Shown here: one piece after another, positions 29,683-55,849 of the stretch
Position numbering within the stretch: position 1 is the first letter of the stretch
Layout: each line of letters begins with the position of its first letter
Origin: Betaproteobacteria bacterium
GTDB taxonomy: Bacteria > Pseudomonadota > Gammaproteobacteria > Burkholderiales > UBA6910
Assembly: GCA_016183615.1 (NCBI GenBank)
Contig: JACPEG010000003.1
Location: 62,001 to 126,000, forward strand
Direction: 5' to 3'
DNA: 64,000 nucleotides
The notes under the pieces: model-generated
Database searches by the model: none
What the model was told of the DNA's origin: nothing
Seen by the model: only the letters and a program-made list of their open reading frames with translations
Program-made: the position numbers and the translations under genes

Positions 29683-30510
29683 CTAGAACCCGCCCGTTAG
29701 CTTCAGTATGCGGCCCGTCCCGGTTTCCGCGACGTACAGGTTGCCCGACTTATCGAAGGCCGGATCCCGCGGACCGTCCAGGCCCTCGCGCAGGATCGCG
29801 TGGCTTCCGTCGGGCTTGATCCGCAACACCTTCCCGAGTTTGGGCTGGGCCACGTAGAAGCTTCCCGAGGGGCCGATGGCGATGCCCACGCCCCGCCCCA
29901 CTTCGGCGAAGGTCTGCGTCGCGCCATCTCGCCCGACCCTGATGACGCGGCCGCCCTGATTTTCGTTGATGTAGGTTTCGCCGGACTTTCCGAAGGCGAG
30001 GCCATGAGGCCACTTGAGGCCGGAGGCGACCACCCGCGCGGGCTTTCCGCGCGCGAAGGCGGCCACCCTGCCCTTGTGCAGCTCGCAGACCAGCAGCTCC
30101 CCCTGCGGATTGAAATCCAGGTCCACGGGGAATTCCACGCCGCCGATGTGGGTCGTGACCTTCCCCGAAGGATGAATCTTCGCCACCCGGTTCGCTCCGC
30201 TGTCCGCCACGTACAGATTGCCCCTGGTATCCCGTGCCACGTCATGGGGATCGGACAAACCCGTCGCCAGGCGCGTCACCTGCCCATCCGGCGTAATCCG
30301 CGCCACGCTGCCGCCCGACTGCTCGACCACGTAGAGTTCTCCCGCAGGACCGAACAACAGCCCCCGCGGTCCAGCAAGGCCAGAGACGAACACGGTGTAG
30401 GCGGGTTCCGAAGCCGGCGCGGCGGGCTTTTCCGGGTCCGCGGCAAAACCGGATTGCGCTGCCAGAACGAGCGCCAGCAAGACTACGACGAACAGGCGAC
30501 GGTCAATCAT
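29683..30510 (-). CDS. exported NHL/SMP-30-like beta-propeller protein
   Basis: 275 aa from ATG 30510 (AGGAG 7 bases upstream). A signal peptide covers ~1-23. Repeated blades follow with the pattern GP-G-LYV-E--G--V-RI-PDG (LYVVEQSGGSVARI, LYVADSGANRVAKI, FYVAQPKLGKVLRI, LYVAETGTGRILKL), six blades in all. It resembles NHL or virginiamycin B lyase-type propellers, but no catalytic set is evident. Function unknown. Confidence 0.82.
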   Translation of the reverse strand: MIDRRLFVVVLLALVLAAQSGFAADPEKPAAPASEPAYTVFVSGLAGPRGLLFGPAGELYVVEQSGGSVARITPDGQVTRLATGLSDPHDVARDTRGNLYVADSGANRVAKIHPSGKVTTHIGGVEFPVDLDFNPQGELLVCELHKGRVAAFARGKPARVVASGLKWPHGLAFGKSGETYINENQGGRVIRVGRDGATQTFAEVGRGVGIAIGPSGSFYVAQPKLGKVLRIKPDGSHAILREGLDGPRDPAFDKSGNLYVAETGTGRILKLTGGF

Positions 30511-30725
30511 GATTCTTCTCCTCGACAAGGATGGAATCGCACGCCCTTTGCATCACAAGGCAATTCGACTCCGGTACCCGAGGTTTATGCGGCACCTTCG
30601 GTCAACGTCTCGCGCCCACAGGGCGCACAAGCGCCCTCAATGCGGGGCATATCGGCCGGAGAGCCAATATCCATGCGGCTTTCGGGCCGATCTGACTCTC
30701 ATATATGCCCAGCACCGGGCGTCCT

Positions 30726-36654: not shown

Positions 36655-36680
36655 AATCATTCCCACCAAAGGATTTGCAC

Positions 36681-37274
36681 ATGGAGATGGGCCGCGTCTT
36701 ACGCGTCATGCTGGTGGATGGCACGCCGCGCCGGGTGAGTTCGCTGCGGAATGCGCTGGACGCGGCGGAAATCTCCGTCGCTGCACGGCTGAGTTCGACA
36801 GCGGACTGGCAAGCCCAGGTGGCGAGCGTCCGGCCCGATGTGATCATCATTCACACCGAGTCGCCGAGCCGCGGCGTGCTGGAGCGGATCGCTGCGACGA
36901 GCCGCGGCGGGCCGCCGCCGATGGTGATGTTCACAGGCGATGACAGCAGCGAATCCATCCAGGCTGCGATCGGCGCGGGCGTCGCGGCCTATGTGGTGGA
37001 CAGGAATCTTGAGCCGGGCCGCATCCGGTCCATTCTGCAAGTCGCGATGGTGCGCTTCCAGCAGGAACAGGCCCTGCGCAGCCGCCTCGCCGATGCGGAG
37101 TCGCGGCTCGCGGAGCGCAAGCTCACCGAGCGCGCCAAGGGCATCATCATGGAGAAGCGCGGCGTGAACGAGGCGGAGGCCTACCGGCTGTTGCGGAAGA
37201 TGGCGATGGACCGCAACCAGCGGCTTGCCGAGGTGGCCCGGCAGATCATCTCGGTGGCCGATGTTTTCGGCTGA
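36681..37274 (+). CDS. nasT: NasT-like ANTAR antiterminator regulator
   Basis: 197 aa from ATG 36681 (AAGGA ~8 bases upstream). The receiver-like domain starts VMLVDGTPRR. At the phosphoacceptor position it reads IIIHTESPS, His58 instead of the usual Asp. The C-terminal ANTAR RNA-binding domain is canonical (TERAKGIIMEKRGVNEAEAY, then LLRKMAMDRNQRLAEVARQI). Such proteins bind paired hexaloop hairpins and prevent termination in nitrate-assimilation leaders. Two matching leaders occur in this window (37402, 42229). No nasS sensor gene is adjacent, which is unusual. Confidence 0.92.
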   Translation: MEMGRVLRVMLVDGTPRRVSSLRNALDAAEISVAARLSSTADWQAQVASVRPDVIIIHTESPSRGVLERIAATSRGGPPPMVMFTGDDSSESIQAAIGAGVAAYVVDRNLEPGRIRSILQVAMVRFQQEQALRSRLADAESRLAERKLTERAKGIIMEKRGVNEAEAYRLLRKMAMDRNQRLAEVARQIISVADVFG

Positions 37275-37363: not shown

Positions 37364-37401
37364 GGTCGGATCTTAGCGATCCGTTAGCAGGAAGGCGCGA
37401 C

Positions 37402-37450
37402 GCCGCCACCGACGGTGGCCTAGCGCGGCGATGGGGCCAAGGATGGCCCC
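37402..37450 (+). promoter_or_regulatory. ANTAR two-hairpin antiterminator leader (copy 1)
   Basis: Hairpin P1 is GCCGCC-ACCGAC-GGTGGC (37402-37419) and P2 is GGGGCC-AAGGAT-GGCCCC (37433-37450). Both have 6-bp stems and 6-base loops with A at position 1 and G at position 4, the hallmark of ANTAR RNA targets. A strong terminator follows 15 bases later, then the flavoprotein gene. NasT is encoded directly upstream. Confidence 0.87.
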
Positions 37451-37464
37451 GCATTGGGACAACG

Positions 37465-37508
37465 GGGTCCAATCCCGCCGGAGACGGCGGGATTGGACCC
37501 ATTTTTTT
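37465..37508 (+). terminator. leader terminator controlled by ANTAR hairpins
   Basis: A perfect 15-bp stem (GGGTCCAATCCCGCC with its complement), loop GGAGAC, then seven T. It lies just ahead of the flavoprotein start at 37521, so transcription needs antitermination. Confidence 0.93.
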
Positions 37509-37520
37509 GGGGTTATCCGT

Positions 37521-39503
37521 TTGGTTGCCGTACTCGACGATTTGCGGAATCACGCCCGGGACGAAGTGCCGGTAGTGGTGATCGGCGCCGGCCCGGTGGG
37601 CGTGCGCGTCGCCCAGGAGCTGCGGCGCCGCGCGCCTGCGCTCCCGGTCGTGATCTACGGCGCCGAGCCCTGGGCACCTTACAACCGCGTGCGCCTGTCC
37701 TCCGCCTTGGCCGGGGAAATGCAGTGGGCGGAAGTGACGCGCGACGTCGCGCTGCCTCCCGACGCCGCCACCATGACCCGCTTCGGGTGCAGCGTGACCG
37801 CCATTCAGCGGGAAATCCGCTGCGTGGTGGACCGGACAGGCCGGGTCCAGCCTTATTCCCGGCTGGTGCTGGCAACGGGATCGACGCCCCACGTGCCCGA
37901 CATCCCCGGGATCGCCATGTCCGGCGTGTTCACCTTCCGCGACTGGAACGACGCGCAGCAGTTGGCGGCGCGCCTGGTGCGGAGCCGCGCCACGGTCGTC
38001 CTCGGCGGCGGCCTGCTGGGGCTGGAGGCGGCCCGGGCCATGCGCCGCTTCCATACCCGGGTAACGGTCGTCGAGCACTGCGACCGCCTCATGGCGCGCC
38101 AGCTCGATCATGGCGGCGCAGAGCTGCTGCGCCTCCAGGTCGAAGAATCGGGCATCGCCGTGGTGCTGGAGGACGGCGTCACCCGCGTGCTGGGGGCGGG
38201 CCGGGTGGAAGGGGTGCGGCTGCGCGGCGGGCGCGAGATCGCCTGTGACACCCTGGTCGTCGCCACCGGCATCCGCCCCAACCTGCAGCTTGCCCTGCAG
38301 GCGGGCCTGTCCATCGGCCGCGGCATCCGGGTAAACGACCGGATGCAGACCACCGATAACCTGATCTACGCCGCGGGCGAATGTGCCGAGCATCGGGGCG
38401 CCGTTTACGGCGTCGTCGCGCCGGGCCTGGAGCAGGCCGCGGTGGCCGCCCACAACATCGCCGGCGGCGATGCCCAATACACCGGATCGGCGGTGGCCAC
38501 CCGGCTCAAGGTGATGCGGTTTCCCGTTTTCAGCGTCGGGGAATTCGCCGGCGACGAACTGCCGGAGCTGGCGCGCGAGCAGGTCTTCCACCGTCCCGCC
38601 GAGGCGCTCTACCGCAAGATCGTCATCCGCCGCGGCCGGATCATCGGCGCCATTGCCGTGGGCGAATGGGACGAGCTGGCACGGGTTCAGGAAGCCGTGG
38701 CCCGGGGCCGCAAGCTCCATCCCTGGAACCGCTGGCGCTTCGCCCGCAGCGGCGGGCTGTGGCCCGCGGCGGCCGGCACCGGCGTTGCGCACTGGCCCCA
38801 GCACACCGCCGTGTGCAACTGCACGGGCATCACGCGCGGCTGTCTCACCGAGGCAATCGATGCCGGCTGCGGGACAGTCGAGCAACTCGCCGCCGCCACC
38901 GGCGCGTCGACCGTCTGCGGCTCCTGCCGTCCCCTGCTTGCCCAGCTCTGCGGAAGCGCCGCTGCGCGGGAGCCGGTGCCTCACTTCCGGGCCCTGTTCG
39001 TGCTGGCCATCGCCGCCCTGGGGCTGGGACTCGCGGCGGGGCTCCTGCCCTCGATTCCTTATGCCTCCACGGTCCAGCTTCCCCTGCGCTGGGACGTCCT
39101 GTGGCGGGAGAGCCTGTGGAAGCAGGTGAGCGGTTTCTCGCTTCTGGCGCTGGCCGTGGCGCTGGCCGTGCTCGGCCTGCGCAAGCGCTGGCGCCGCTTC
39201 AGCCTCGGAGAGTATGCCGGGTGGCGGCTGGTACATGTGGCGATCGGCACCGGTGCGCTCGCGCTGCTCTTCGTTCACACCGGCGGGCGCCTCGGTGATC
39301 ACCTGAACCTGGCATTGAGCGGGTCGATGGTGGGGCTTGCCCTGGTCGGCGCGGTAGCCGGCGGGGTCATTTCCCGCGAGCACGCCCTCGAAGGCCCCGG
39401 GGCCAAAAAGCTGAAGGACACCTCGCTGCGGCTGCACGTGCTGTTCCTGTGGCCGCTGCCGGTGCTGCTGGCGTTCCACGTGCTGAAGACCTACTGGTAC
39501 TGA
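37521..39503 (+). CDS. NirB-like flavoprotein/BFD [2Fe-2S] fused to b-type membrane domain
   Basis: About 660 aa from a TTG at 37521 (GGGG ~8 bases upstream). The in-frame ATG at 37431 is inside the leader hairpins and is rejected. Residues ~15-400 form a NirB/NasB-type FAD and NAD(P)H reductase (VVVIGAGPVGVRVA, VVLGGGLLGLEAA, AAGECAEHRGAVYG). A BFD-like [2Fe-2S] motif follows (C432xC434, C466xxC469). From ~488 on there are five transmembrane helices with histidines in paired positions (WRLVHVAIG, FVHTGG, RLHVLFL, AFHVL), suggesting two b haems. No sirohaem domain is present, so it is not a nitrite reductase. It precedes the 11-haem cytochrome by 9 bp. Confidence 0.82.
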   Translation: MVAVLDDLRNHARDEVPVVVIGAGPVGVRVAQELRRRAPALPVVIYGAEPWAPYNRVRLSSALAGEMQWAEVTRDVALPPDAATMTRFGCSVTAIQREIRCVVDRTGRVQPYSRLVLATGSTPHVPDIPGIAMSGVFTFRDWNDAQQLAARLVRSRATVVLGGGLLGLEAARAMRRFHTRVTVVEHCDRLMARQLDHGGAELLRLQVEESGIAVVLEDGVTRVLGAGRVEGVRLRGGREIACDTLVVATGIRPNLQLALQAGLSIGRGIRVNDRMQTTDNLIYAAGECAEHRGAVYGVVAPGLEQAAVAAHNIAGGDAQYTGSAVATRLKVMRFPVFSVGEFAGDELPELAREQVFHRPAEALYRKIVIRRGRIIGAIAVGEWDELARVQEAVARGRKLHPWNRWRFARSGGLWPAAAGTGVAHWPQHTAVCNCTGITRGCLTEAIDAGCGTVEQLAAATGASTVCGSCRPLLAQLCGSAAAREPVPHFRALFVLAIAALGLGLAAGLLPSIPYASTVQLPLRWDVLWRESLWKQVSGFSLLALAVALAVLGLRKRWRRFSLGEYAGWRLVHVAIGTGALALLFVHTGGRLGDHLNLALSGSMVGLALVGAVAGGVISREHALEGPGAKKLKDTSLRLHVLFLWPLPVLLAFHVLKTYWY

Positions 39504-39512
39504 GGCGGCGCG

Positions 39513-40949
39513 ATGAGCAGGCACTGGAGATCCTGGTTACTGTGGGGCGTCCTCTCGGCGGCGCTGGCGGGCGTTTTCGCCGCGGGCCTGACCGTGGACA
39601 GCGCGCAGGGCAGCAGCTGGCGCGCGGAGGTGCGCAGCCTGTTCCTGCCCGGGGCCACCAGCCACGGCCACTACCAGATCGAGCTGAAGTGCAACGCCTG
39701 TCACGGCGCGGCCTTCGGCGGCCGCGAGGCGCTGCAGGAAGCGTGCGTCAAATGCCACGGCGCAGAACTCAAGGCGGCGGACGACAAACACCCGAAGAGC
39801 AAGTTCACCGATCCGCGCAACGCGGACCGCGCCGCGCTGCTGGACGCCACGCAGTGCGTGACCTGCCACGTGGAGCACCGGCCGGGAATCACGCGCTTCG
39901 CCGGCGTCACCCTTTCCGACGACTACTGCGCCATCTGCCACCGGGACATCGGCAAGGACCGGCCCACTCACCAGGGGCTGGCGTTTACCACCTGCGCCTC
40001 GAGCGGCTGCCACAATTTCCACGACAACCGGGCCCTGTACGAGGATTTCCTGCTGAAGCACGCCGCCGAGCCGGCGCTGCTGGAGCAGCCCGCGCTGCCC
40101 GAGCGCAATTTTGCGAAGGTGCTGGAAGACCTGGGCAGCTATCCCCATGACCGGTACCCGGTAAAGCCGCTCGGGCGCGACGCCATCGACGCGGGATCGA
40201 ATCTCAAGGCCCCCGCCCCGGTAGTGGACGACTGGCTGGCGACCGCCCACGCGAAGGCGGGCGTCAATTGCAGCGCCTGTCACCGGGAAAAGGAACCGGC
40301 GGGAGAACACGCCTGGGTGGAACGCCCGTCCCACAAGGTTTGCACCACCTGTCACGAGCCGGAAGTGAAGGGTTTCCTCGCCGGCAAGCACGGGATGCGG
40401 CTGGTCCAGGACCTGGAACCCATGCGCCCCGCCTTGGCCCGGCTTCCCATGAAGCATGACGCCGGCGACAAGCCGCTCACCTGCATCGCCTGTCACGGCG
40501 CCCACCGCTTCGACACCCGGGCCGCCGCGGTCGAGGGCTGCCTCGCCTGCCACGACGATACCCACAGCCGCGCCTTCAAGGCCTCGCTCCATTACGCCCT
40601 GTGGCAGAAGGAATCGAAGGGCGAGCTACCGGCGGGCAGCGGGGTGTCCTGCACCACCTGCCACATGCCGCGGGTTTCCCACCGCACTCCGGATGACGTC
40701 ACCCGCATCCTGGTCCAGCACAACCAGAACGACACTCTGCGCCCCAACGAAAAGATGATCCGTAGCGCCTGCCTGCATTGTCACGGCCTGCAGTTCAGCC
40801 TGGATGCCCTCGCCGAGCCGAAGCTCGCCGCAGCGAACTTCAAGGGCCAGCCGGCGAAGCGGATCGAAAGCATCGATATGGCCAAACGGGCGGAAGCCCG
40901 GGCCGAAGGATCCCGCCGCAAGGCAAAGGATAGGGGCCAAGGCGGCTGA
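39513..40949 (+). CDS. membrane-anchored 11-haem c-type cytochrome
   Basis: 478 aa. One N-terminal signal/anchor helix (~6-26). Ten CxxCH motifs (CNACH, CVKCH, CVTCH, CAICH, CSACH, CTTCH, CIACH, CLACH, CTTCH, CLHCH) plus one CX4CH (CASSGCH) give 11 likely haems. The second half, with KHGM, CIACHGAHRFD and CTTCHMPR, is reminiscent of NrfA/hydroxylamine-oxidoreductase-type multihaem proteins, but I cannot assign an active site. It is 9 bp downstream of the flavoprotein and under the same ANTAR leader. It is probably periplasmic and exchanges electrons with the b-type membrane domain. Confidence 0.88.
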   Translation: MSRHWRSWLLWGVLSAALAGVFAAGLTVDSAQGSSWRAEVRSLFLPGATSHGHYQIELKCNACHGAAFGGREALQEACVKCHGAELKAADDKHPKSKFTDPRNADRAALLDATQCVTCHVEHRPGITRFAGVTLSDDYCAICHRDIGKDRPTHQGLAFTTCASSGCHNFHDNRALYEDFLLKHAAEPALLEQPALPERNFAKVLEDLGSYPHDRYPVKPLGRDAIDAGSNLKAPAPVVDDWLATAHAKAGVNCSACHREKEPAGEHAWVERPSHKVCTTCHEPEVKGFLAGKHGMRLVQDLEPMRPALARLPMKHDAGDKPLTCIACHGAHRFDTRAAAVEGCLACHDDTHSRAFKASLHYALWQKESKGELPAGSGVSCTTCHMPRVSHRTPDDVTRILVQHNQNDTLRPNEKMIRSACLHCHGLQFSLDALAEPKLAAANFKGQPAKRIESIDMAKRAEARAEGSRRKAKDRGQGG

Positions 40950-41004: not shown

Positions 41005-41580
41005 ATGAAACCCATGAATCCCCTGATCAGACCCCTGGTGGCCGGCGGCATCGCGCTGGCCGCGCTCACTGCAGCGGCCGCGGAGGCACCCAGCGGCTGG
41101 AGCTACAAGGAAATCGCCGACGCGCTTCACGCCATCATGGAGTCCGACCGCACCGTGTACACGCGCAACGTGGTGAACCGCCTCCAGAACGAGGAGAAGG
41201 TCATCAAGGCGAGCGAGCACTGGAAGGACGACAAGGCCCTGCCCCTGCCGGCCCAGATGTTCCGTTACGGCGCCGAGATGGTCGCGGAAAAGAATGCGGG
41301 GTTCACTTACTCCCTGCTTTCGTTGTGGCCGGTGAACAAGCAGAACGCCGCCAAGACGGCCGTCGAGAAGGAAGGCCTGGAGGCGGTGGCGAAGAGCGGC
41401 CAGCCCTATTACAAGGAGGAAACCCTCGGCGGCAAGAAGTACTACACGGCGGTCTATCCCGACAAGGCCGTGGCCAAGGCCTGCATCGCCTGCCACAACG
41501 ACCACAAGGACACGCCGCGCCGGGATTTCAAGATGGGCGACGTGATGGGCGGAGTGGTGCTCCGCATTCCGATGAAATAG
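41005..41580 (+). CDS. periplasmic DUF3365-like monohaem cytochrome
   Basis: 191 aa from ATG 41005 with AAGGAG upstream. A signal peptide covers ~1-26. The DUF3365/Tll0287-like sensor fold is recognisable (ADALHAIMESDRTVYTRNVV, FTYSLLSLWPVNKQN, TAVYPDKAVAKACIACHNDH, MGDVMGGVVLRIPM), with one haem site CIACH. Such domains often sense redox state or small gases. It lies 55 bp downstream of the 11-haem gene and 71 bp ahead of the globin gene, so it is likely in the same operon. Confidence 0.84.
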   Translation: MKPMNPLIRPLVAGGIALAALTAAAAEAPSGWSYKEIADALHAIMESDRTVYTRNVVNRLQNEEKVIKASEHWKDDKALPLPAQMFRYGAEMVAEKNAGFTYSLLSLWPVNKQNAAKTAVEKEGLEAVAKSGQPYYKEETLGGKKYYTAVYPDKAVAKACIACHNDHKDTPRRDFKMGDVMGGVVLRIPMK

Positions 41581-41651: not shown

Positions 41652-42065
41652 ATGACCCCGAAGCAAATCGAGCTGGTGCAGTCCACCTGGCAAGCCGTGA
41701 TCCCCATCAAGGACCAGGCGGCGAAGCTGTTCTACGGCCGGCTGTTCGAACTGGACCCTGCGCTGAAGCCCCTGTTCAAGGGCGACATGGCGGAACAGGG
41801 CCGCAAGCTCACCGCCATGATCAACACGGCGGTGACCGGCCTGTCGCGTCTCGACGAGATCGTTCCTGCGGTGCAGGACCTGGGCCGGCGCCACGTCGCC
41901 TACGGCGTGACCGGCGCCCACTACGACACGGTGGGCGCGGCGCTGCTGTGGACCCTGGAAAAGGGCCTGGGGGACGCCTTCACGCCGCCGGTTGCAGAAG
42001 CCTGGGCCACGGTCTACGGCGTCCTCGCAAGCACGATGAAGGAAGCGGCAGCAACGACCGTTTAG
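41652..42065 (+). CDS. single-domain haemoglobin (Vitreoscilla-type globin)
   Basis: 137 aa. The globin fold is clear: residues 1-45 with the CD-corner Phe, H81 as proximal histidine (LGRRHVAYGV) and Q49 near the distal site as in Vitreoscilla haemoglobin. No reductase domain is fused. Such globins bind O2 and detoxify NO with a partner reductase. In this operon it may protect against NO formed from nitrite; the upstream flavoprotein is a candidate partner. AAGGAG precedes the start. Confidence 0.93.
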   Translation: MTPKQIELVQSTWQAVIPIKDQAAKLFYGRLFELDPALKPLFKGDMAEQGRKLTAMINTAVTGLSRLDEIVPAVQDLGRRHVAYGVTGAHYDTVGAALLWTLEKGLGDAFTPPVAEAWATVYGVLASTMKEAAATTV

Positions 42066-42415: not shown

Positions 42416-43822
42416 ATGAAACGATTTTCACTAAAGAGGAATTTTCCCGGCCGCGCGGCAAGCTTCGCCCAGGCCACGGTGGTATCGGTGGCGCTGGCGC
42501 TGCAAATGCTGAGCGCGCCGGCCATGGCCGCAAAGCAGGTGGAGAAGCCGGACCTCAAGTTCGGCTTCATCAAGCTCACCGACATGGTGCCGCTGGCCAT
42601 TGCCAAGGAGAAAGGCTTCTTCGAAGACGAGGGCCTGTTCGTCACCCTGGAGGCGCAGGCCAACTGGAAAGTGCTGCTCGACCGCGTGATCGGCGGGGAG
42701 TTGGACGGCGCCCATATGCTGTCCGGCCAGCCGCTCGGCGCAACCATCGGCTTCGGCACCAAGGCCGACGTCATCACCGCCTTCACCATGGATCTGAACG
42801 GCAACGCCTGCACCGTTTCCAACGCCGTCTGGTCGGAGATGAAAAAGAACCTGCCGATGAAGGATGGCAAGCCCGTGCACCCGAACAAGGCGGACGCCCT
42901 CAAGCCGGTGATCAAGGCCTTCCGCGACAAGGGGACGCCCTTCAAGATGGGCATGGTGTTCCCGGTCTCCACCCACAATTACGAGCTGCGCTACTGGCTC
43001 GCCGCCGGCGGCGTTCACCCGGGCTACTACGCGCCGGACAAGGGCGACATCACCGGCCAGATCAACGCCGATGTGCTGATCTCGGTCACGCCGCCGCCGC
43101 AGATGCCCGCCACCCTGGACTCCGGAACCATCCACGGCTATTGCGTGGGCGAGCCCTGGAACCAGCAGGCGGTGTTCAAGGGCATCGGCGTGCCGGTGGT
43201 GACCGATTACGACATCCGCAACAACGTCTCGGAGAAGGTGTTCGGCGTCACCAAGGCCTGGGCGGAGAAGTATCCGAAGACCCATATCGCCGTGGTCAAG
43301 GCGCTGATTCGCGCGGGCAAGTGGCTGGACGCGGAAAACAACAAGAACCGTGCCGAAGCGGCGAAGATCATCTCGAAATCGAACTATGTCGGCGCCGACT
43401 TCGACGTCATCGACAACAGCATGACCGGCAAATTCGAGTTCGAGAAAGGCGACGTGCGTCCGGCGCCCGACTTCAATGTCTTCTTCCGCTACAACGCCAC
43501 CTATCCGTATTACTCGGATGCGGTCTGGTACCTCACGCAGATGCGCCGCTGGGGTCAGATTCCGGAGGCGAAGCCCGACAGCTGGTACATGGACATCGCG
43601 AAGAAGGTGTATCGCGCGGACATCTATCAGCAGGCGGCAAACGAGCTGATCGCCGAGGGCAAGATGACCGCGGCCGATTTCCCCGACTTCGCCAAGGAAA
43701 CCGGGTTCCGCCCGCTGCAGCACACGAAGTTCATCGACGGCATCGTTTTCGACGGCCGCAAGCCCAATGCCTACATCGACAGCTTCAAGATCGGGCTGAA
43801 GGGCAAGGAGAAGGCGAAGTAG
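42416..43822 (+). CDS. nrtA: nitrate ABC transporter substrate-binding protein
   Basis: 468 aa from ATG 42416 (AGGAG 10 bases upstream). A long signal peptide ends near SAPAMA-AKQ. The NrtA/CmpA-type fold is clear: [20 protein letters not shown], then [25 protein letters not shown]. It binds nitrate or nitrite in the periplasm. Its gene follows the ANTAR leader and starts nrtABCD. A secreted NrtA relative can resemble NasS, but the signal peptide argues against a cytoplasmic sensor role. Confidence 0.93.
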
Positions 43823-43930
43823 GAGCGCTCCGAGAGGGCGGCGGGCGCCTCGCGCCTGCCGCCGCTCCAGCAAAGAAGCTGGCCCGCTCGGGGCATTGCA
43901 TCGATCGTTTTGACTGATAGGTGAATTGCC

Positions 43931-44947
43931 ATGCTCAACCAAACGGCGAATATTCTGGGCAAGACCGGATTAACCTGGTTCGTGCCATTTGTCCGGCTGA
44001 TGGCGGGAGAAGATCCGCGCCAGCAGATTCGGGAAATCCTGCTTCAAATCGGGGTGCCGGTGCTGGCCTTCGCGCTGTTCCTTGCCGTGTGGAACGGGCT
44101 CGCTTCCGGCGTGCAAACCAGCCTGGGCGCCATCCCCGGGCCGGCACAGGTTCTCGAGGAGGCCAAGGGACTCGCCGCCGAGCACTTCAGCGAACGCGAA
44201 CAGGCGGCCGCATTCCACCAGCGGCAGCAGGAGCGCAACGCCAAGCTGCTGGCCGAAGACCCCAGGGCCGAAGTCACCATCCGGCCCTGGACCGGCAAGC
44301 CCACCTATTTCGACCAGATCATGACCAGCCTCAATACCGTGTTTACGGGATTCGCCCTGGCCACGCTGGTCGCGGTGCCGCTCGGAATCCTGTGCGGCCT
44401 GAGCCGGACCATCCAGATCGCGCTCAATCCCCTGATCCAGATTTTCCGGCCGGTCTCGCCGCTCGCCTGGCTGCCGATCGTGACCCTGGTGGTGAGCGCG
44501 GTCTACATTTCGGCGAATCCGATGTTCCAGAAGTCATTCATCATTTCGGCGATCACGGTAACCCTGTGCTCCCTGTGGCCGACGCTGATCAACACGGCGG
44601 TGGGCGTGTCGTCCATCGACAAGGATCTGATCAACGTCTCCAGGGTATTGCGGCTCAACGTGTTCACCAAGGTGACCAAGATCGTCATCCCCTCCTCGCT
44701 GAAGCTGATCTTCACGGGGCTGCGCCTGTCGCTGGGCGTGGGCTGGATGGTGCTGATTGCCGCCGAGATGCTGGCCCAGAATCCGGGGCTCGGGAAGTTC
44801 GTCTGGGATGAGTTCCAGAACGGCAGCTCCAACTCTCTCGGACGGATCATGGTAGCGGTGTTCACCATCGGCTTCGTCGGATTCCTGCTCGACCGGATTA
44901 TGCTGACTCTGCAGCAGCTGGTGAGTTTCGGCGAAAACGCCCATTAA
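43931..44947 (+). CDS. nrtB: nitrate ABC transporter permease
   Basis: 338 aa. One N-terminal helix (~40-62), a periplasmic insert of ~80 residues, then the BPD_transp_1 domain with five helices and the EAA-like loop (DLINVSRVLRLNVFTKVTKI). The C-terminal AAEMLAQNPGLGKFVW is typical of NrtB/TauC-type permeases. It homodimerises in the membrane with the fused ATPase. It lies 108 bp after nrtA and 15 bp before nrtCD. Confidence 0.94.
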   Translation: MLNQTANILGKTGLTWFVPFVRLMAGEDPRQQIREILLQIGVPVLAFALFLAVWNGLASGVQTSLGAIPGPAQVLEEAKGLAAEHFSEREQAAAFHQRQQERNAKLLAEDPRAEVTIRPWTGKPTYFDQIMTSLNTVFTGFALATLVAVPLGILCGLSRTIQIALNPLIQIFRPVSPLAWLPIVTLVVSAVYISANPMFQKSFIISAITVTLCSLWPTLINTAVGVSSIDKDLINVSRVLRLNVFTKVTKIVIPSSLKLIFTGLRLSLGVGWMVLIAAEMLAQNPGLGKFVWDEFQNGSSNSLGRIMVAVFTIGFVGFLLDRIMLTLQQLVSFGENAH

Positions 44948-44962
44948 GCAGGGGAAGGAACC

Positions 44963-46732
44963 ATGGCCGTGCATCAGTTGAAGATTGCAGAGAAGCCCGC
45001 TCTCCTGTTTGCCGAGCGTGCCGCGAGCCCGGGATTTGGGCAGCCGGCAGTCGCCGCCGGTAACACCTGTCTCGAGGTCAGGAACCTGAGCAAGGCCTAC
45101 GGGACGGGCGCCGCCAGAACCCACGTCCTGCAGGACATCAACCTGCAGATCCGGGAGGGAGAGTTCGTTGCCATCGTCGGCTTCTCGGGCAGCGGCAAGA
45201 CGACGCTGATTTCGCTGATGGCCGGACTGATTGCTCCCGATGAAGGCGCGGTGCTGGTCAACGGCAAGCCGGTTGCCGGGCCGGGGCCGGACCGCGGCGT
45301 GGTGTTCCAGAGCTACTCCCTCATGCCCTGGATGACGGTGCGCCAGAACGTCGCCCTCGCCGTGGACCAGGTATTCAAGGCGCTGCCCAGGAAAGAACGA
45401 AGGGCGCAGGTGGAGAAGTACGTCGAGATGGTCAATCTCACCCCGGCCATGGACAAGCGTCCCGCGGAACTCTCCGGCGGCATGCGCCAGCGGGTGGCCG
45501 TGGCGCGGGCGCTTTCCGCCAATCCCGACATCCTGCTGCTCGACGAGCCCCTGAGCGCCCTCGATGCCCTCACCCGCGCCAACCTTCAGGATGAAATCCT
45601 CCGGATCTGGAGCCGGGAAAAGAAGACGGTGGTGCTCATCACCAACGACGTGGACGAGGGCATCATGATGGCGGATCGCATCATCCCGCTCAGACCCGGA
45701 CCCGGCGCGACCTTCGGCCCCGAGTTTCCGGCCACCCTGGCGCGGCCGCGGGATCGCAAGGAGATGAACCACGACCGGGAATTCAAGCGCATCCGCAAGG
45801 AGGTCACCCAATACCTGATGCAGGTCGGCTCCGAGCGGACCGGCGGCGCCCAGGACAAGGTGATCGTCCTGCCGACGGTGGTGCCCAATACCAGTCAAGA
45901 GCATCAGGCCGCCAGGAAGCCCGCGGGCGCGAAGCAAAAAACGCCGGCGCACCCGGAGCGCTACGTGGAGTTCTCCCAGATATCGAAAATCTATCCCACC
46001 CGCAAGGGGCCGGTGAAGGTGGTCGAAGAGTTCGACCTCAAGATCCGCAAGGGGGAATTCGTCTCGATCATCGGCCACTCCGGCTGCGGCAAGTCGACCG
46101 TGCTATCGATGGTCGCGGGCCTCAACGACGTCAGCGAGGGCGCCATCATTCTCGACGGCCGCGAAGTCGCCACGGCGGGACCCGACCGCGGCATCGTGTT
46201 CCAAGCCCCGAGCCTGGTGCCCTGGCTCACCGCCTACGAGAACGTGGCGCTGGGGGTCGAGCAGGTTTTCCCCCACGCCAGCAGGCAGGAGCGCCGCGAC
46301 ATCGTCAAACACTACCTGAGCCGGGTCGGTCTCTCGGACTCGGCCCACAAAAACGCCTTCGATCTCTCCAACGGCATGAAGCAGCGGGTGGGCATCGCGC
46401 GAGCCTTCGCACTCTCCCCGAAACTCCTGCTGCTGGACGAGCCGTTCGGCATGCTCGATTCGCTCACCCGGTGGGAGCTCCAGGAAGTGCTGATGGAAGT
46501 GTGGTCACGAATCAAGCTGACCGCCATCATGGTTACCCACGACGTGGACGAAGCGATCCTGCTTGCCGACCGGGTGGTCATGATGACCAACGGGCCGCGC
46601 GCCAGGGTCGGCAAAATCCTGGAAATCGATCTGCCGCGCCCGCGGACCCGGAAGATGCTGCTCGAGCATCCCGACTACTACGCCTTGCGGGAGGAGTTGC
46701 TCAGCTTCCTGGCCGACTGCGAACACGGATAG
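44963..46732 (+). CDS. nrtCD: fused tandem ABC ATPase of nitrate transporter (NrtC-NrtD-like)
   Basis: 589 aa with two ATP-binding cassettes (~36-270 and ~330-585). NBD1 has Walker [10 protein letters not shown], signature LSGGMRQRV and Walker [13 protein letters not shown], but the switch region reads ITNDVDEG, Asn in place of the H-loop His. NBD2 has [21 protein letters not shown] and a proper H-loop THDVDEA, but signature LSNGMKQRV. The two sites are therefore asymmetric. Cyanobacterial NrtC and NrtD are separate; here they are one chain. They energise nitrate uptake with NrtA/NrtB. Confidence 0.93.
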
Positions 46733-50366: not shown

Positions 50367-52823
50367 ATGCGCAAGATGAAGCTGGTGATGGTCGGCAACG
50401 GCATGGCCGGGGTGCGCACCCTGGAAGAGCTGCTCAAGCTCGCCCCCGATCTCTATGACATCACGGTGTTCGGGGCGGAGCCCCATCCCAACTACAACCG
50501 CATCCTGCTCTCTCCGGTGCTCTCCGGCGAGCAGACCGTCAACGACATCATTCTCAACGACCTCGACTGGTACCGGGCCCATGGCATCCGGCTCCACCTC
50601 AACAAGAAGGTAACCCGCATCGACCGCGTCAGGCGCCGTGTCTACGCCGAAGACGGCACCGAGGCCGAATACGACCGCCTGCTGCTGGCCACCGGCTCGA
50701 ATCCGGTGATTCTCCCGGTTCCCGGCAAGGAACTGAAGGGCGTCATCACCTATCGCGACATCGCCGACACCGACGCCATGATCGAGGCTGCCGCGAAATT
50801 CAGGCATGCGGTGGTGATCGGCGGCGGGCTGCTGGGCTTGGAAGCGGCCAACGGCCTCAGGGTCCGCGGCATGGAGGTCACGGTGGTGCACCTCATGCCC
50901 TGGCTCATGGAACGGCAACTGGACGAGACTGCCGGGCGACTGCTGCAGCAGTCGCTGGAAAAGCGGGGACTCAAATTCCTGCTGCCGAAGGAAACGGAGT
51001 GTCTGGTGGGCGGCGCCGTTGGCCGCGTGAAGGCGGTGCGCTTCAAGCCTGCCCCGGGCTCCGCCCCGGGGGAGGGAACGGAGATTCCCGCCGACCTGGT
51101 GGTCATGGCGGTCGGCATCCGGCCCAACACCGAGCTCGCCGAGTCCGCGGGCCTGCACTGCAACCGCGGCATCGTGGTGAACGACACCATGCAGACCTTC
51201 GACCCGCGCATCTACGCTGTCGGCGAATGCGTGCGGCACCGGGGCGTGGCCTACGGGCTGGTGGCGCCCCTGTTCGAAATGGGCAAGGTCTGCGCCAACC
51301 ACCTCGCCCACATGGGCATCGGCCGCTACGCCGGCTCGGTCACCTCCACCAAGCTCAAGGTGACGGGGATCGACCTGTTTTCCGCCGGCGATTTCCAGGG
51401 CGGGAACGACAGCGAGGAAATCGTGCTCAAGGACGCCTCCTCGGGCGTGTACAAGAAGCTCGTCATCCGCGACAACAAGCTGGTGGGAGGCGTGCTCTAC
51501 GGCGACACCGTGGACGGCGCCTGGTATTTCCAGCTGCTGAAGGATGGCCAGAGCGTCGCCGACCTCCGCGATCACCTGATGTTCGGCCAGACCCATCTCG
51601 GCAACACCGGCCACGCCGGCCAGAACAAGGCCGCCGCCATGACCGACGCGATGGAGGTGTGCGGCTGCAACGGCGTGTGCAAGGGCACCATCGTCAAGGC
51701 CATCAAGGAAAAGGGCCTGTTCACCCTGGACGACGTGCGCAAGCACACCAAGGCCTCCAGCTCCTGCGGCTCCTGCACCGGCCTGGTGGAGCAGATTCTC
51801 GCCTCCACCGTGGGCGGCGCCTACGCGCCCCAGTCGAACACGGCCAAGCCCCTGTGCGGCTGCACCGAGCTCACCCACGAGGAGGTGCGCAAGGCAATCC
51901 GGGAGGAGAAGCTGCTGTCGATTCCCGAGGTCATGGAATTCCTCAACTGGCGCACCCCCAACGGCTGCGCCACCTGCCGCCCGGCGCTGAACTACTACCT
52001 GGTCTGCGCCTGGCCCCACGAGGCGAAGGACGATCCGCAATCGCGCTTCATCAACGAGCGCGCCCACGCCAACATCCAGAAGGACGGCACCTACTCGGTG
52101 ATTCCCCGCATGTACGGCGGCGTGACCAATCCCGACCAGTTGCGGCGCATCGCCGACGTGGCCGACAAATACCGGATTCCGACGGTGAAGGTGACCGGCG
52201 GCCAGCGCATCGACCTGCTGGGGGTGAAGAAGGAGGACCTGCCCAGGGTGTGGGCGGATCTCGCCATGCCCTCGGGCTACGCCTACGGCAAGGCGCTGCG
52301 CACCGTGAAAACCTGCGTCGGGAGCGAGTGGTGCCGCTTCGGCGTGCAGGACTCCACCAACATGGGCATCGAGCTGGAAAAGGCGTTCGACCGCATGTGG
52401 GCGCCCCACAAGGTGAAGATGGCCGTCTCCGGCTGTCCCCGCAACTGCGCCGAATCCGGCATCAAGGACGTGGGCGTGATCGGCGTGGACTCCGGCTGGG
52501 AAATCTACGTGGCGGGCAACGGCGGCATCAAGACGGAAGTCGCCCAGTTCCTCGCCAAGGTGAAGACCCGCGAGGAAGTGCTCGAGTACTGCGGCGCGTT
52601 CATCCAGATCTATCGCGAGGAAGCGCGCTACCTGGACCGCACCGTGCACTGGGTGAACCGGGTGGGACTGGATTACGTGAAAAAGCGCATACTGGACGAT
52701 CACGAAGGCCGCAAGGCCCTCTACGAACGCCTGCTCTATGCGCTGCAGGGCGAAAAGGACCCCTGGCAGGAGCGGGCCGCCAAGGGTGTCGCCAGGCATG
52801 AATTCGAGAGCCTGAGCGTATGA
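50367..52823 (+). CDS. nirB: assimilatory nitrite reductase large subunit
   Basis: 818 aa with the complete NirB layout. FAD and NADH domains (VMVGNGMAGVRT, VVIGGGLLGLEAA) run to ~400. Two BFD-like [2Fe-2S] segments follow (CGCNGVCKG with CGSCTG; CGCTELTHEEV with CATCRPAL). The sirohaem-[4Fe-4S] domain has TCVGSEWCRFG and SGCPRNCAES. It reduces nitrite to ammonium with NADH. GAGGAG is 8 bases upstream. It overlaps nirD by 4 bp. Confidence 0.97.
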   Translation: MRKMKLVMVGNGMAGVRTLEELLKLAPDLYDITVFGAEPHPNYNRILLSPVLSGEQTVNDIILNDLDWYRAHGIRLHLNKKVTRIDRVRRRVYAEDGTEAEYDRLLLATGSNPVILPVPGKELKGVITYRDIADTDAMIEAAAKFRHAVVIGGGLLGLEAANGLRVRGMEVTVVHLMPWLMERQLDETAGRLLQQSLEKRGLKFLLPKETECLVGGAVGRVKAVRFKPAPGSAPGEGTEIPADLVVMAVGIRPNTELAESAGLHCNRGIVVNDTMQTFDPRIYAVGECVRHRGVAYGLVAPLFEMGKVCANHLAHMGIGRYAGSVTSTKLKVTGIDLFSAGDFQGGNDSEEIVLKDASSGVYKKLVIRDNKLVGGVLYGDTVDGAWYFQLLKDGQSVADLRDHLMFGQTHLGNTGHAGQNKAAAMTDAMEVCGCNGVCKGTIVKAIKEKGLFTLDDVRKHTKASSSCGSCTGLVEQILASTVGGAYAPQSNTAKPLCGCTELTHEEVRKAIREEKLLSIPEVMEFLNWRTPNGCATCRPALNYYLVCAWPHEAKDDPQSRFINERAHANIQKDGTYSVIPRMYGGVTNPDQLRRIADVADKYRIPTVKVTGGQRIDLLGVKKEDLPRVWADLAMPSGYAYGKALRTVKTCVGSEWCRFGVQDSTNMGIELEKAFDRMWAPHKVKMAVSGCPRNCAESGIKDVGVIGVDSGWEIYVAGNGGIKTEVAQFLAKVKTREEVLEYCGAFIQIYREEARYLDRTVHWVNRVGLDYVKKRILDDHEGRKALYERLLYALQGEKDPWQERAAKGVARHEFESLSV

Positions 52824-53152
52824 CGAGGGTGGAAACCGAAATGTGGGTCCGGGTCGCTGCCCTGGAGGAAATTCCCCGGCTGGGGGCGCGGGTGGTGAAA
52901 AGCCCGCTTGGCGATATCGCCGTATTCCGGAATAACCAGGACGAAGTGTTCGCGCTGCGGGACAAGTGCCCCCACAAGGGCGGGCCCCTGTCCCAGGGCA
53001 TCGTGTTCGAGCGCAAGGTCACCTGCCCGCTCCACGGCTGGACCACCCACCTGGACTCGGGGCAGGCGGTGGCCCCCGACGAGGGCTGCACCGCGACCTT
53101 TCCCGTCAAGGTGGAGGGTGGAGAGGTATACCTGCAACTGGAGCGTCCGTGA
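52820..53152 (+). CDS. nirD: nitrite reductase small subunit, Rieske-type
   Basis: 110 aa. The Rieske fold keeps all four ligands: CPHKGG (C, H) and CPLHGW (C, H), so it should bind a [2Fe-2S] cluster. The E. coli NirD lacks these residues, so this is the cluster-binding variant found in many assimilatory NirD proteins. It overlaps nirB and abuts nasA (stop and ATG adjacent). Confidence 0.95.
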   Translation: MTRVETEMWVRVAALEEIPRLGARVVKSPLGDIAVFRNNQDEVFALRDKCPHKGGPLSQGIVFERKVTCPLHGWTTHLDSGQAVAPDEGCTATFPVKVEGGEVYLQLERP

Positions 53153-55849
53153 ATGCCCGCGGTCCGGTCCACCTGCTGCTATTGCGGGGTCGGCTGCGGA
53201 GTCGTGATTGAAACGGCCGCTGACCGCATCACCGCGGTAAAGGGCGACCCGGACCATCCCGCGAATTTCGGCCGGCTCTGCACCAAGGGCTCGACCCTGC
53301 ATCTCACGGCCTCTCCCGAAGGCCGGGCCCTTTACCCCGAGCTGCGCCGCGCCCGCGGCGAGCCCAGGGAACGCACCACCTGGAACCATGCGCTGGATTT
53401 CGCGGCGGAGCGCTTCGCCGCCATCATCCGCGAGCACGGCCCCGACGCCGTCGCCTTCTACATTTCCGGCCAGCTCCTCACCGAGGATTATTACGTCTTC
53501 AACAAGCTCGCCAAGGGACTCGTCGGCACCAACAACGTGGACACCAACTCGCGGCTATGCATGTCCTCGGCGGTCGCGGGCTACAAGGCGACCCTCGGCG
53601 CCGACTCGGTCCCCACCTGCTACGAGGACATCGATCACGCCGTATGCATTCTGATCGCCGGCTCCAACACCGCCTACGCCCACCCGGTGCTGTTCCGCCG
53701 CATCGAGGACGCCCGCGCGAAAAACCCCGATCTCAGGCTGATCGTGATCGACCCCCGGGCCACCGATACCGCTTCATTGGCGGACCTGCACCTGCCCGTG
53801 CTGCCGGGCACCGACGTGGCGCTGTTCAACGCCATGCTTCACGTGCTGGTGTGGGACGGCCTGGTGGACCAGCAGTTCATCCGCGCCCACACCACCGGTT
53901 TCGACGTCCTCAAGGAGGCGGTGCGGGAATACACCCCCCAGGCCGCGTCCGACATCTGCGGGGTGCCCGCGGAAGACATCGTGCTCGCCGCCCGCTGGTT
54001 CGGCTCGTCCAATGCCTCGCTCTCGCTGTACTGCCAGGGACTCAACCAGTCCACCCACGGCACCGACAGCAATGCGACCCTCATCAACCTGCACCTGGCG
54101 ACCGGGCATATCGGCAAGCCCGGCGCCGGACCGTTCTCCCTCACCGGCCAGCCCAACGCCATGGGCGGCCGCGAGGTGGGCGGCATGGCCAACCTGCTTT
54201 CGGCCCACCGCAACCTGGCGGACGCCGGGCACCGCGCCGAGGTCGCGCGGCTGTGGGGCATTGACACCGTGCCGGACAAGCCCGGCAAGACCGCGGTGGA
54301 GCTGTTCGACGCGGTGGCGAAGGGTGAAGTAAAGGCCATCTGGATTTCCTGCACCAATCCGGCCCACTCCATGCCCGACGCGGCCCGGGTGCGGGAGGCG
54401 CTCAAGAAAGCGGAGCTGGTGGTGGTGCAGGAAGCCTACCGCCACACCGACACCACGGCGTTCGCCGACGTGCTGTTGCCCGCCTCGAGCTGGGGCGAGA
54501 AGGAAGGAACCGTCACCAACTCTGAACGCCGCATCTCGCGGGTGCGCAAGGCCGTTCCTGCACCGGGCGAAGCGCGGCCCGACTGGGAAGCCGCGACTGC
54601 GTTTGCGAGGCGTCTCGAAGAGCGGCTGCGCTCCGGGCGCCCCACCCTGTTTCCCTACCGCTCTCCCGAAGATGTATTCAACGAGCACCGGGAAACCACC
54701 CGCGGCCGCGACCTCGACATCACGGGGCTGTCCTACGGGCTGCTGGAATCCCGCGGCCCGCAGCAATGGCCGTTTCCCGAGGGCGCGGAGAGCGGAAAGC
54801 CGAGGCTGTTCGAAGACGGCGAATTCCCCACCCCCGACGGTCGCGCCCGCTTCGCGATCGCGGGCTACCGTCCTCCGGCGGAAAAGACCGATGCCCGCTA
54901 TCCCCTGCGCCTCAACACCGGGCGCCTGCGGGACCATTGGCACGGCATGAGCCGCTCGGGGCAGGTGCCGCAGCTTTTCGACCACGGCGGCGAGCCCGCC
55001 GCCTACCTGCACCCGGAGGACATGCTCCGGCGCGGCGTGAAAAACGGTGATTTCGTCCGCATCTCGAGCCGGCGCGGGAGCCTGACCCTGGCGGCGGCGG
55101 AATCCATCGAAGTGCGTCCGGGACACGTATTCGTGCCGATGCACTGGAACAGCCAGTTCCTCAAGGGCCACGGCCCCAACGCCCTGACCATCAGCGCCTA
55201 CGATCCGGTCTCGAAGCAGCCGGAACTCAAACATGCCGCAGTGCGGCTGGAAAAGGCGGACCTGCCCTGGCGCATGGTCGCCATGGCCACCGGGAGCTCT
55301 GCGGCGCGCCGGGAAGCGCTGCAGCCGTTGCTGGAGCAGTTCGACTTCGCGAGTTGCGTGCCCTTCGGGCGGGAGCGCGACGCCGTGCTGTTTCGGGCGG
55401 CCTCCCGGGAGCCGGCCGCCGCGGAATTGCTCGCGCGGATCGACCATATCCTGGGCCTGGATGACGAAAGCGAAACGATCCGCTACCTGGATTCGCGCCG
55501 GAATATTTCCAAGTCGGTGCGCATTCACGGGGAAGCACTGGTAGCGGTGCGGCTTTGCGGGGAAACGGCCGCCTGCGACTGGCTGAAGGACACCATGGCC
55601 GGCGCGGTCAGCCTGGGGGACCTCAGGCGCTGGGTGCTGGCGCCCATGGCCCGCCCGCCAGCCGGCTTCGCGCCCCAGGGCCGCGTCGTATGCAACTGCC
55701 TGAACGTCTCGGAGCACGCGATCCGGCAGGCCCTCGACGGCGGAGCCGACCTGTCCGCGCTTCAGGCCAGGCTCAAGTGCGGCACCGAATGCGGCTCCTG
55801 CCTGCCGGAGATCAAGCGCATGGTGGCGGCCCGACCCCAGGCGGCATAA
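53153..55849 (+). CDS. nasA: assimilatory nitrate reductase catalytic subunit with C-terminal BFD
   Basis: 898 aa. N-terminal [4Fe-4S] ligands C8, C11, C15 (CCYCGVGC) and a fourth in RLCTKGS. The Mo-bisMGD fold has the Mo-ligand Cys in NSRLCMSSAV and QPNAMGGREVGGMANL. A dinucleotide-binding domain ends near 700. The last ~65 residues add a BFD-like [2Fe-2S] site (VCNCLNVSE, CGTECGSC), as in NasA of Klebsiella type. It reduces nitrate to nitrite in the cytoplasm. No separate NasC/B reductase lies downstream, so electrons may come from NirB or the flavoprotein at 37521. Confidence 0.96.
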   Translation: MPAVRSTCCYCGVGCGVVIETAADRITAVKGDPDHPANFGRLCTKGSTLHLTASPEGRALYPELRRARGEPRERTTWNHALDFAAERFAAIIREHGPDAVAFYISGQLLTEDYYVFNKLAKGLVGTNNVDTNSRLCMSSAVAGYKATLGADSVPTCYEDIDHAVCILIAGSNTAYAHPVLFRRIEDARAKNPDLRLIVIDPRATDTASLADLHLPVLPGTDVALFNAMLHVLVWDGLVDQQFIRAHTTGFDVLKEAVREYTPQAASDICGVPAEDIVLAARWFGSSNASLSLYCQGLNQSTHGTDSNATLINLHLATGHIGKPGAGPFSLTGQPNAMGGREVGGMANLLSAHRNLADAGHRAEVARLWGIDTVPDKPGKTAVELFDAVAKGEVKAIWISCTNPAHSMPDAARVREALKKAELVVVQEAYRHTDTTAFADVLLPASSWGEKEGTVTNSERRISRVRKAVPAPGEARPDWEAATAFARRLEERLRSGRPTLFPYRSPEDVFNEHRETTRGRDLDITGLSYGLLESRGPQQWPFPEGAESGKPRLFEDGEFPTPDGRARFAIAGYRPPAEKTDARYPLRLNTGRLRDHWHGMSRSGQVPQLFDHGGEPAAYLHPEDMLRRGVKNGDFVRISSRRGSLTLAAAESIEVRPGHVFVPMHWNSQFLKGHGPNALTISAYDPVSKQPELKHAAVRLEKADLPWRMVAMATGSSAARREALQPLLEQFDFASCVPFGRERDAVLFRAASREPAAAELLARIDHILGLDDESETIRYLDSRRNISKSVRIHGEALVAVRLCGETAACDWLKDTMAGAVSLGDLRRWVLAPMARPPAGFAPQGRVVCNCLNVSEHAIRQALDGGADLSALQARLKCGTECGSCLPEIKRMVAARPQAA

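Follow-up and report, generated by a model that had tools for sequence, protein, structure and literature searches.

The question raised by this locus is how electrons might pass from a cytoplasmic NAD(H) flavoprotein to a multihaem cytochrome on the far side of the membrane, and what such a transfer would serve. Within the 64,000-nucleotide stretch of DNA from a Betaproteobacteria bacterium that was analysed (the window, G000:C61:62001-126000, from a genome of 3.74 Mb), the gene for a flavoprotein-membrane fusion (FUS) is separated by 9 bases from that for an 11-haem cytochrome (CYT), and genes for a Tll0287-like protein (TLL) and a globin (GLB) follow. A preliminary description of the sequence had read FUS and CYT as a candidate electron conduit; its observation is confirmed here, and its interpretation is partly supported. 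We propose, with confidence about evenly balanced against doubt, that the locus encodes a three-protein, quinone-bypassing conduit from NADH to the periplasm that serves the handling of N-oxides, probably nitric oxide (NO).

The reading frame of FUS opens at 37431 and stops at 39503; as the former position lies within leader hairpins, the TTG at 37521 is the better start. Pfam searches identify the domains Pyr_redox_2 (3e-56), Rubredoxin_C (3e-12) and Fer2_BFD (7e-9). The NirB model TIGR02374 matches over its positions 1-469 of 794 only, scoring 379 bits where the cut-off is 578, and hence FUS lacks the sirohaem half of that enzyme. In agreement, no sirohaem/[4Fe-4S] nitrite reductase domain was found in FUS by domain scan, and a membrane domain stands in that place. 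The head (about residues 1-480) holds an FAD site, GAGPVG, at residue 22 and an NAD site, GGGLLGLE, at residue 162; Glu185 at the end of the strand after the NAD site presumably favours NADH. The BFD [2Fe-2S] site is formed by Cys432, Cys434, Cys466 and Cys469, which are kept in at least 22 of the 23 homologues, the exception being a variant with a GPP34 domain. FUS therefore shares with NirB the FAD/NAD(H) head and the BFD [2Fe-2S] unit, a combination also present in the Klebsiella-type NasC electron-transfer flavoprotein, but differs from NirB in lacking the sirohaem half, in its C-terminal dihaem-b-type membrane domain and in the phylogeny of its heads, which form one separate clade (support 100/100).

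The membrane domain (about residues 487-660) contains the five hydrophobic segments of FUS, and the positively charged loops share the side of the NADH domain. This pattern predicts five transmembrane helices (TM1-TM5) with the head inside and the C-terminus outside. His572 and His586 are located in TM3, His639 and His653 in TM5, with a spacing of 14 residues within each pair, and all four are invariant in 23/23 homologues. With two conserved pairs of transmembrane histidines at matching depth, as in dihaem membrane cytochromes b, we classify the domain by functional analogy as putatively dihaem-b-type, with both haems predicted from the ligands. Domain scan, the extent of the TIGR02374 match and topology thus agree with the preliminary description of a NirB-like head without sirohaem fused to a five-helix domain with paired histidines. 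Of ten members scanned, eight show a weak Pfam similarity to DUF4405 in the membrane domain (PF14358; best E value 1.5e-4), at printed scores of 15.2 and 17.2 bits that lie under the Pfam cut-off of 26.7, and the FUS of the window itself is unmatched. DUF4405 membrane proteins have been shown to bind haem b; as in FUS, they display conserved histidines in transmembrane helices and a proposed role in transmembrane electron transfer (PMC11334425). FUS differs from them in having five helices instead of six, a multihaem c partner instead of flavinylated proteins, and scores below the cut-off. An AlphaFold model of FUS (predicted local distance difference test score, pLDDT, of 60) displayed helices only.

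CYT carries ten CxxCH motifs and one CX4CH motif (CASSGCH), and the motif histidines of all 11 haems are invariant in the 24 sequences aligned. The preliminary description of a periplasmic 11-haem cytochrome is thus correct in its haem count; with regard to location, a hydrophobic stretch near the N-terminus (about residues 8-28) leads us to infer a membrane-anchored protein that faces the periplasm. Outside the motifs, His53, His93, His122, His153 and His170 in the N-terminal half (five haems) and His246, His293, His351, His360 and His403 in the C-terminal half (six haems) are invariant in 24/24 sequences, His331 is present in 23 and a spare His183 in 21. Leaving His183 aside, the number of distal histidines equals that of haems in each half.

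These features bear on whether CYT could reduce an N-oxide (nitrite, hydroxylamine or NO) in the periplasm, as a relative of octahaem nitrite reductase and NrfA, with FUS as its dedicated NADH-linked donor. In a search of the CYT-family profile against the PDB, octahaem nitrite reductase was matched at 8e-10 in the C-terminal part and NrfA at 6e-8, including a CxxCHMP...H stretch; His360 may lie about where NrfA has its active-site histidine, and nitrate and nitrite genes surround many of the loci. The matches are nevertheless pieces of about 40-75 residues, short stretches within the C-terminal half only, and the genome also encodes nirB. The catalytic haem of such enzymes has an open site, with the proximal Lys of a CXXCK motif and a pocket of Tyr, His and Arg. 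Furthermore, CYT differs from both enzymes in its 11 haems, its membrane anchor and its matching set of distal histidines, and no CXXCK haem was detected among the 11 motifs of the 24 aligned sequences. As the distal histidines are as numerous as the haems and would suffice for every one, there is no clear sign of a catalytic haem left vacant. The matched numbers argue against such a site, although one of these residues could serve in an active site as in NrfA. The nitrite or hydroxylamine reductase suggested in the preliminary description is therefore not borne out by the haem ligands, despite the C-terminal match. We regard a reductase role of CYT as unlikely, and a wire or electron store as likelier than a nitrite reductase.

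To define the conserved unit, the neighbourhoods of 25 loci, the window included, were read and tabulated. Apart from the window, the loci stem from two genomes of the same family, one more of the order, five gammaproteobacterial metagenome-assembled genomes (three labelled Thiogranum), two more genomes of the phylum and 14 genomes in the order to which one of these two belongs. All 25 loci contain CYT and TLL; FUS is found in 23, plus one as a fragment at a contig end, the remaining locus being cut by a contig end. The module is rare: counting the genome of the window, a sample of 398 genomes from the phylum yielded 3 with it and 300 from its order yielded 4, and it occurs in 15 of 146 genomes in another order, that of genome G417. 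Among these 146, CYT and the membrane-domain profile were each detected in 15 genomes, and both occurred adjacently in 14, which places the FUS-CYT linkage far beyond chance. No confident membrane-domain homologue without CYT was found among the genomes searched. Two further matches were weak and partial (G762:C3, 1e-8; G793, 1e-7), and the plasmid records searched gave no match. Both the histidine pairs and the cytochrome partner of the preliminary description are thus constant; their absence from homologues was what that description had named as refuting it. That the genes are chance neighbours without joint function is a general possibility only; many genera retain the order FUS-CYT-TLL, the genes agree in their presence among genomes, and FUS and CYT trees recover the same main clades, so that we find it scarcely credible. 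The module is real and conserved.

Companion genes bear on the process that the module may serve. A globin, single-domain or truncated, lies near 20/25 loci and a hemerythrin near one locus without globin (L029 14316-14849 in G417, a hemerythrin-domain protein upstream of FUS on the same strand), whereas nrtA is near 11/25. These counts do not support the tie to nitrate assimilation made in the preliminary description as an exclusive one. TLL and the globin, which that description left unused, are more constant companions than the nitrate genes. NirS gave strong matches in only 6/20 CYT genomes, so that the module is not tied to denitrification. Across the order of G417, NasA occurs in 12/15 CYT genomes versus 67/131 others, some of them probably other molybdoenzymes, which constitutes a weak link.

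Among the profile similarities of CYT are also the decahaem DmsE family (TIGR03508, 48 bits against a cut-off of 192, with 11 haems in CYT versus ten) and the MtrC/MtrF families. Together with small cytochrome c matches in 16/25 loci and a porin-like gene in 6/25, they could point to an electron-overflow valve or extracellular electron transfer, in which NADH feeds cytochrome c, oxidases or outside acceptors via CYT to balance redox and the nitrogen genes are incidental. However, the porin belongs to the alginate-export type and accompanies nrt genes in every case, the clusters contain no recognisable MtrB-like barrel or multihaem protein of the outer membrane, and the links to globin and nitrate recur across many genera. 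We consider such a role improbable.

TLL is a one-haem protein with the CxxCH motif present in 23/23 sequences. Tll0287-type domains fused to signalling modules bind NO, and a stand-alone Tll0287-type protein with Cys/His ligation looked redox-active (PMC12889525). The axial Cys ligand of the latter has no counterpart in TLL: no cysteine beyond the haem pair is common to the mature TLL domains, and extra cysteines occur near the N-terminus only. Neither NO binding nor redox behaviour can therefore be assumed for TLL. About half of the TLL proteins (L048, L053, L056 and others) have an N-terminal lipobox-like Cys, which suggests membrane-anchored lipoproteins in that clade. In GLB, a single-domain globin of the flavohaemoglobin/Bjgb type, Tyr28, Gln49, His81 and Tyr91 are invariant in 15/15 sequences; we take these to be Tyr B10, Gln E7, His F8 and Tyr G5, which would make the globins here of the NO-active type.

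Taken together, globins near most loci, and nitrate genes and ANTAR proteins at many, direct attention to nitrogen oxides. In the mechanism we favour, the cytoplasmic head of FUS would oxidise NADH at its FAD and pass electrons via the BFD [2Fe-2S] cluster to a stacked pair of intramembrane b haems, ligated by His572/His639 near the inside and by His586/His653 near the outside. CYT would accept them as wire and electron store and deliver them to small periplasmic haem proteins, namely TLL and a one-haem cytochrome c that many relatives encode. The module would act in N-oxide handling during nitrate growth, most likely by removing periplasmic NO or related reactive nitrogen species, with the cytoplasmic globin covering the inner side and, in this genome, expression set by an ANTAR antiterminator on a two-hexaloop leader. 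Electrons leaving NADH for the outside run strongly downhill at the expense of membrane potential, like those in NOX and ferric reductases, and the reverse is steeply uphill. With outward flow favourable and inward transfer to NAD+ costly, energy conservation is a less plausible role than detoxification or assimilation. The preliminary description had left the direction of the path from NAD(P)H through FAD, [2Fe-2S] and haem b to the multihaem protein open; its layout and constant CYT partner are supported, and the outward direction is our own assignment.

Several observations weigh against this proposal. In G733, where the gene again neighbours CYT and TLL, the dihaem-type membrane domain carries GPP34 (Golgi phosphoprotein 3-like, 2e-33) in place of the whole NADH head (L059 10504-11673); as this FUS is devoid of an NADH module, its electrons must come from elsewhere, for example from quinol. 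Neither globin nor hemerythrin is found at 4/25 loci, the 25 loci share no terminal reductase, and the AlphaFold model of CYT, computed with six sequences, reached a pLDDT of 42, too low for haem packing and ligation to be read from it. The characterised stand-alone Tll0287-type protein, in addition, bound NO weakly (PMC12889525). A second head variant, in which an additional FNR-type FAD/NAD unit is inserted between BFD and membrane domain (L030 1-1692 in G436, where the contig start cuts the gene), fits NAD(P)H as the donor; the L059 variant does not.

Nearest to the module among described kinds are the DUF4405 haem-b proteins and the narK-bjgb-flp-nasC unit of Bradyrhizobium, which likewise combines nitrate transport and reduction genes, a single-domain globin, an NAD(P)H flavoprotein and NasT control of the ANTAR type, and in which globin and flavoprotein protect against NO (PMC4724949). 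Unlike FUS, Flp is presented as an NAD(P)H-dependent oxidoreductase of the cytoplasm, and neither a membrane domain nor an 11-haem cytochrome nor a Tll0287 protein is mentioned for that unit (PMC4724949). By analogy, FUS might mainly feed cytoplasmic acceptors as a Flp-type reductase of NasA and the globin, with the membrane domain and CYT adding input from the quinol pool or the periplasm. Flp, in similar gene company, is needed for nitrate growth and NO protection (PMC4724949), globins lie near most loci, and the NADH-free variant of G733 fits quinol as the source. Yet several loci lack nas genes and globin nearby, a periplasm-facing 11-haem partner in 25/25 would be hard to explain with cytoplasmic acceptors, and flow from the periplasm to the level of NADH is uphill. 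This alternative is quite improbable in our estimation; feeding of NasA, which the preliminary description had also raised, is possible and not required, as nas genes are absent from the surroundings of several loci.

An NADH-to-periplasm conduit would differ from known ones. CbcL-type and Mtr/DmsE conduits likewise join a membrane electron step to a periplasm-facing multihaem cytochrome, but they draw from quinol, whereas the head here is an NAD(H) flavoprotein. The Uet undecahaem complex also has an 11-haem cytochrome; it includes a porin, a peptidyl-prolyl isomerase, an NHL protein and tri- and tetrahaem proteins (PMC10734462), none of which is in the conserved set here, a distinction made by companions. 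The module seems undescribed: no description was found in the literature searched, whose coverage largely excludes subscription papers. Somewhat more tentatively than for the conduit itself, we suggest an undescribed, quinone-independent class of conduit from NADH to a periplasmic cytochrome (flavin-[2Fe-2S]-dihaem b-11 haem c); joined by a Tll0287 protein and a globin, it would provide two-sided defence against, or reduction of, NO and nitrogen oxides in nitrate-using bacteria. Bacterial multihaem conduits are usually thought to be quinol-fed, and a link from NADH would add a second entry point; Tll0287-type proteins and single-domain globins would gain a shared redox partner, and how nitrate-using cells handle NO on the outer face of the membrane would become directly testable.

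Control of the module was assessed from the leader before FUS, which folds at z = -4.9 and contains two hairpins with A1/G4 hexaloops followed by an intrinsic terminator whose stem ends 20 bases before the FUS start. Such an order next to an ANTAR protein gene corresponds to attenuators of the ANTAR/NasR type. At least one such hexaloop is expected in about 14% of mono-shuffled leaders. Two hexaloops and a terminator likewise precede the FUS gene of the relative G001, the arrangement was not found in the remaining leaders scanned, and ANTAR homologues lie near 8/25 loci. The recurrence in two genomes is suggestive of ANTAR-type attenuation, not proof of it, and the ANTAR protein of the window is likely the regulator, as the preliminary description had supposed. 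An Rfam scan returned nothing besides a sub-threshold match to RsmW at 37384-37505 (33 versus 52 bits), which overlies the leader hairpins and is most likely a look-alike.

Features of the locus in window coordinates, with supporting matches.
Feature	Position	Strand	Remarks
Response-regulator-like + ANTAR protein (NasT-like antiterminator)	36675..37274	+	Pfam ANTAR 1e-20, 73.5 bits; receiver domain below cut-off
Leader hairpin 1	37402..37419	+	hexaloop ACCGAC (A1, G4)
Leader hairpin 2	37432..37451	+	hexaloop AAGGAT (A1, G4)
Intrinsic terminator	37465..37508	+	16-bp stem, T7, just 5' of FUS
FUS, NirB-like NAD(H)/FAD + BFD [2Fe-2S] head with five-helix membrane domain	37521..39503	+	start TTG
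CYT, 11-haem c-type cytochrome, predicted membrane-anchored	39513..40949	+	N-half c3-type; C-half stretches like octahaem nitrite reductase, NrfA, DmsE
TLL, periplasmic one-haem Tll0287/DUF3365 (sCache_heme) protein	41005..41580	+	PF11845 7e-22, 79 bits vs cut-off 24
GLB, single-domain globin, flavohaemoglobin/Bjgb type	41652..42065	+	PF00042 9e-16, Hmp model 2e-21
nrtA, nrtB, nrtCD, ABC-type nitrate transporter (context)	42416..46732	+	NMT1_2 4e-92; in about half of relatives
nirB, nirD (52820-53152), nasA, complete nitrate/nitrite assimilation set (context)	50367..55849	+	

On the + strand, the ANTAR regulator, leader, FUS, CYT, TLL and globin are followed by nrtA, nrtB, nrtCD, a carrier of the MFS type, a PP2C phosphatase-Ser/Thr kinase-type protein, nirB, nirD and nasA. 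The PP2C-kinase-type gene, read by eye at 48436-50133 between the MFS carrier and nirB, remains paired with the carrier gene in G001, G003 and G235, and its product is possibly a regulator of nitrate transport. NasA (53153-55849) ends in a BFD-like [2Fe-2S] stretch, CNCLNVSEH...CGTECGSC, also recognised by eye, through which it may take electrons from NirB or FUS. On the - strand at 29683-30528, a secreted protein appears by eye to be NHL-repeat-like and is probably unrelated.

Among the relatives, the Alginate_exp-type outer-membrane porin genes accompany nrt genes (L056 6202-7446, L017 13394-14701 and others). A ferredoxin reductase of Fer2-FAD-NAD architecture occurs in clusters with truncated globins (L056 12940-13914, L058 6947-7936), which resemble the glbN-ferredoxin reductase pair of Legionella proposed for NO oxidation (PMC1274295). 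A 1,296-residue open reading frame with nine CxxCH motifs lies about 2.4 kb upstream of FUS on the opposite strand in L017 (2195-6082). Proteins with a PilJ-type N-terminal domain are encoded 3' of the globin in L055 (2968-3792) and L060 (7295-7756), and are perhaps nitrate/nitrite sensors.

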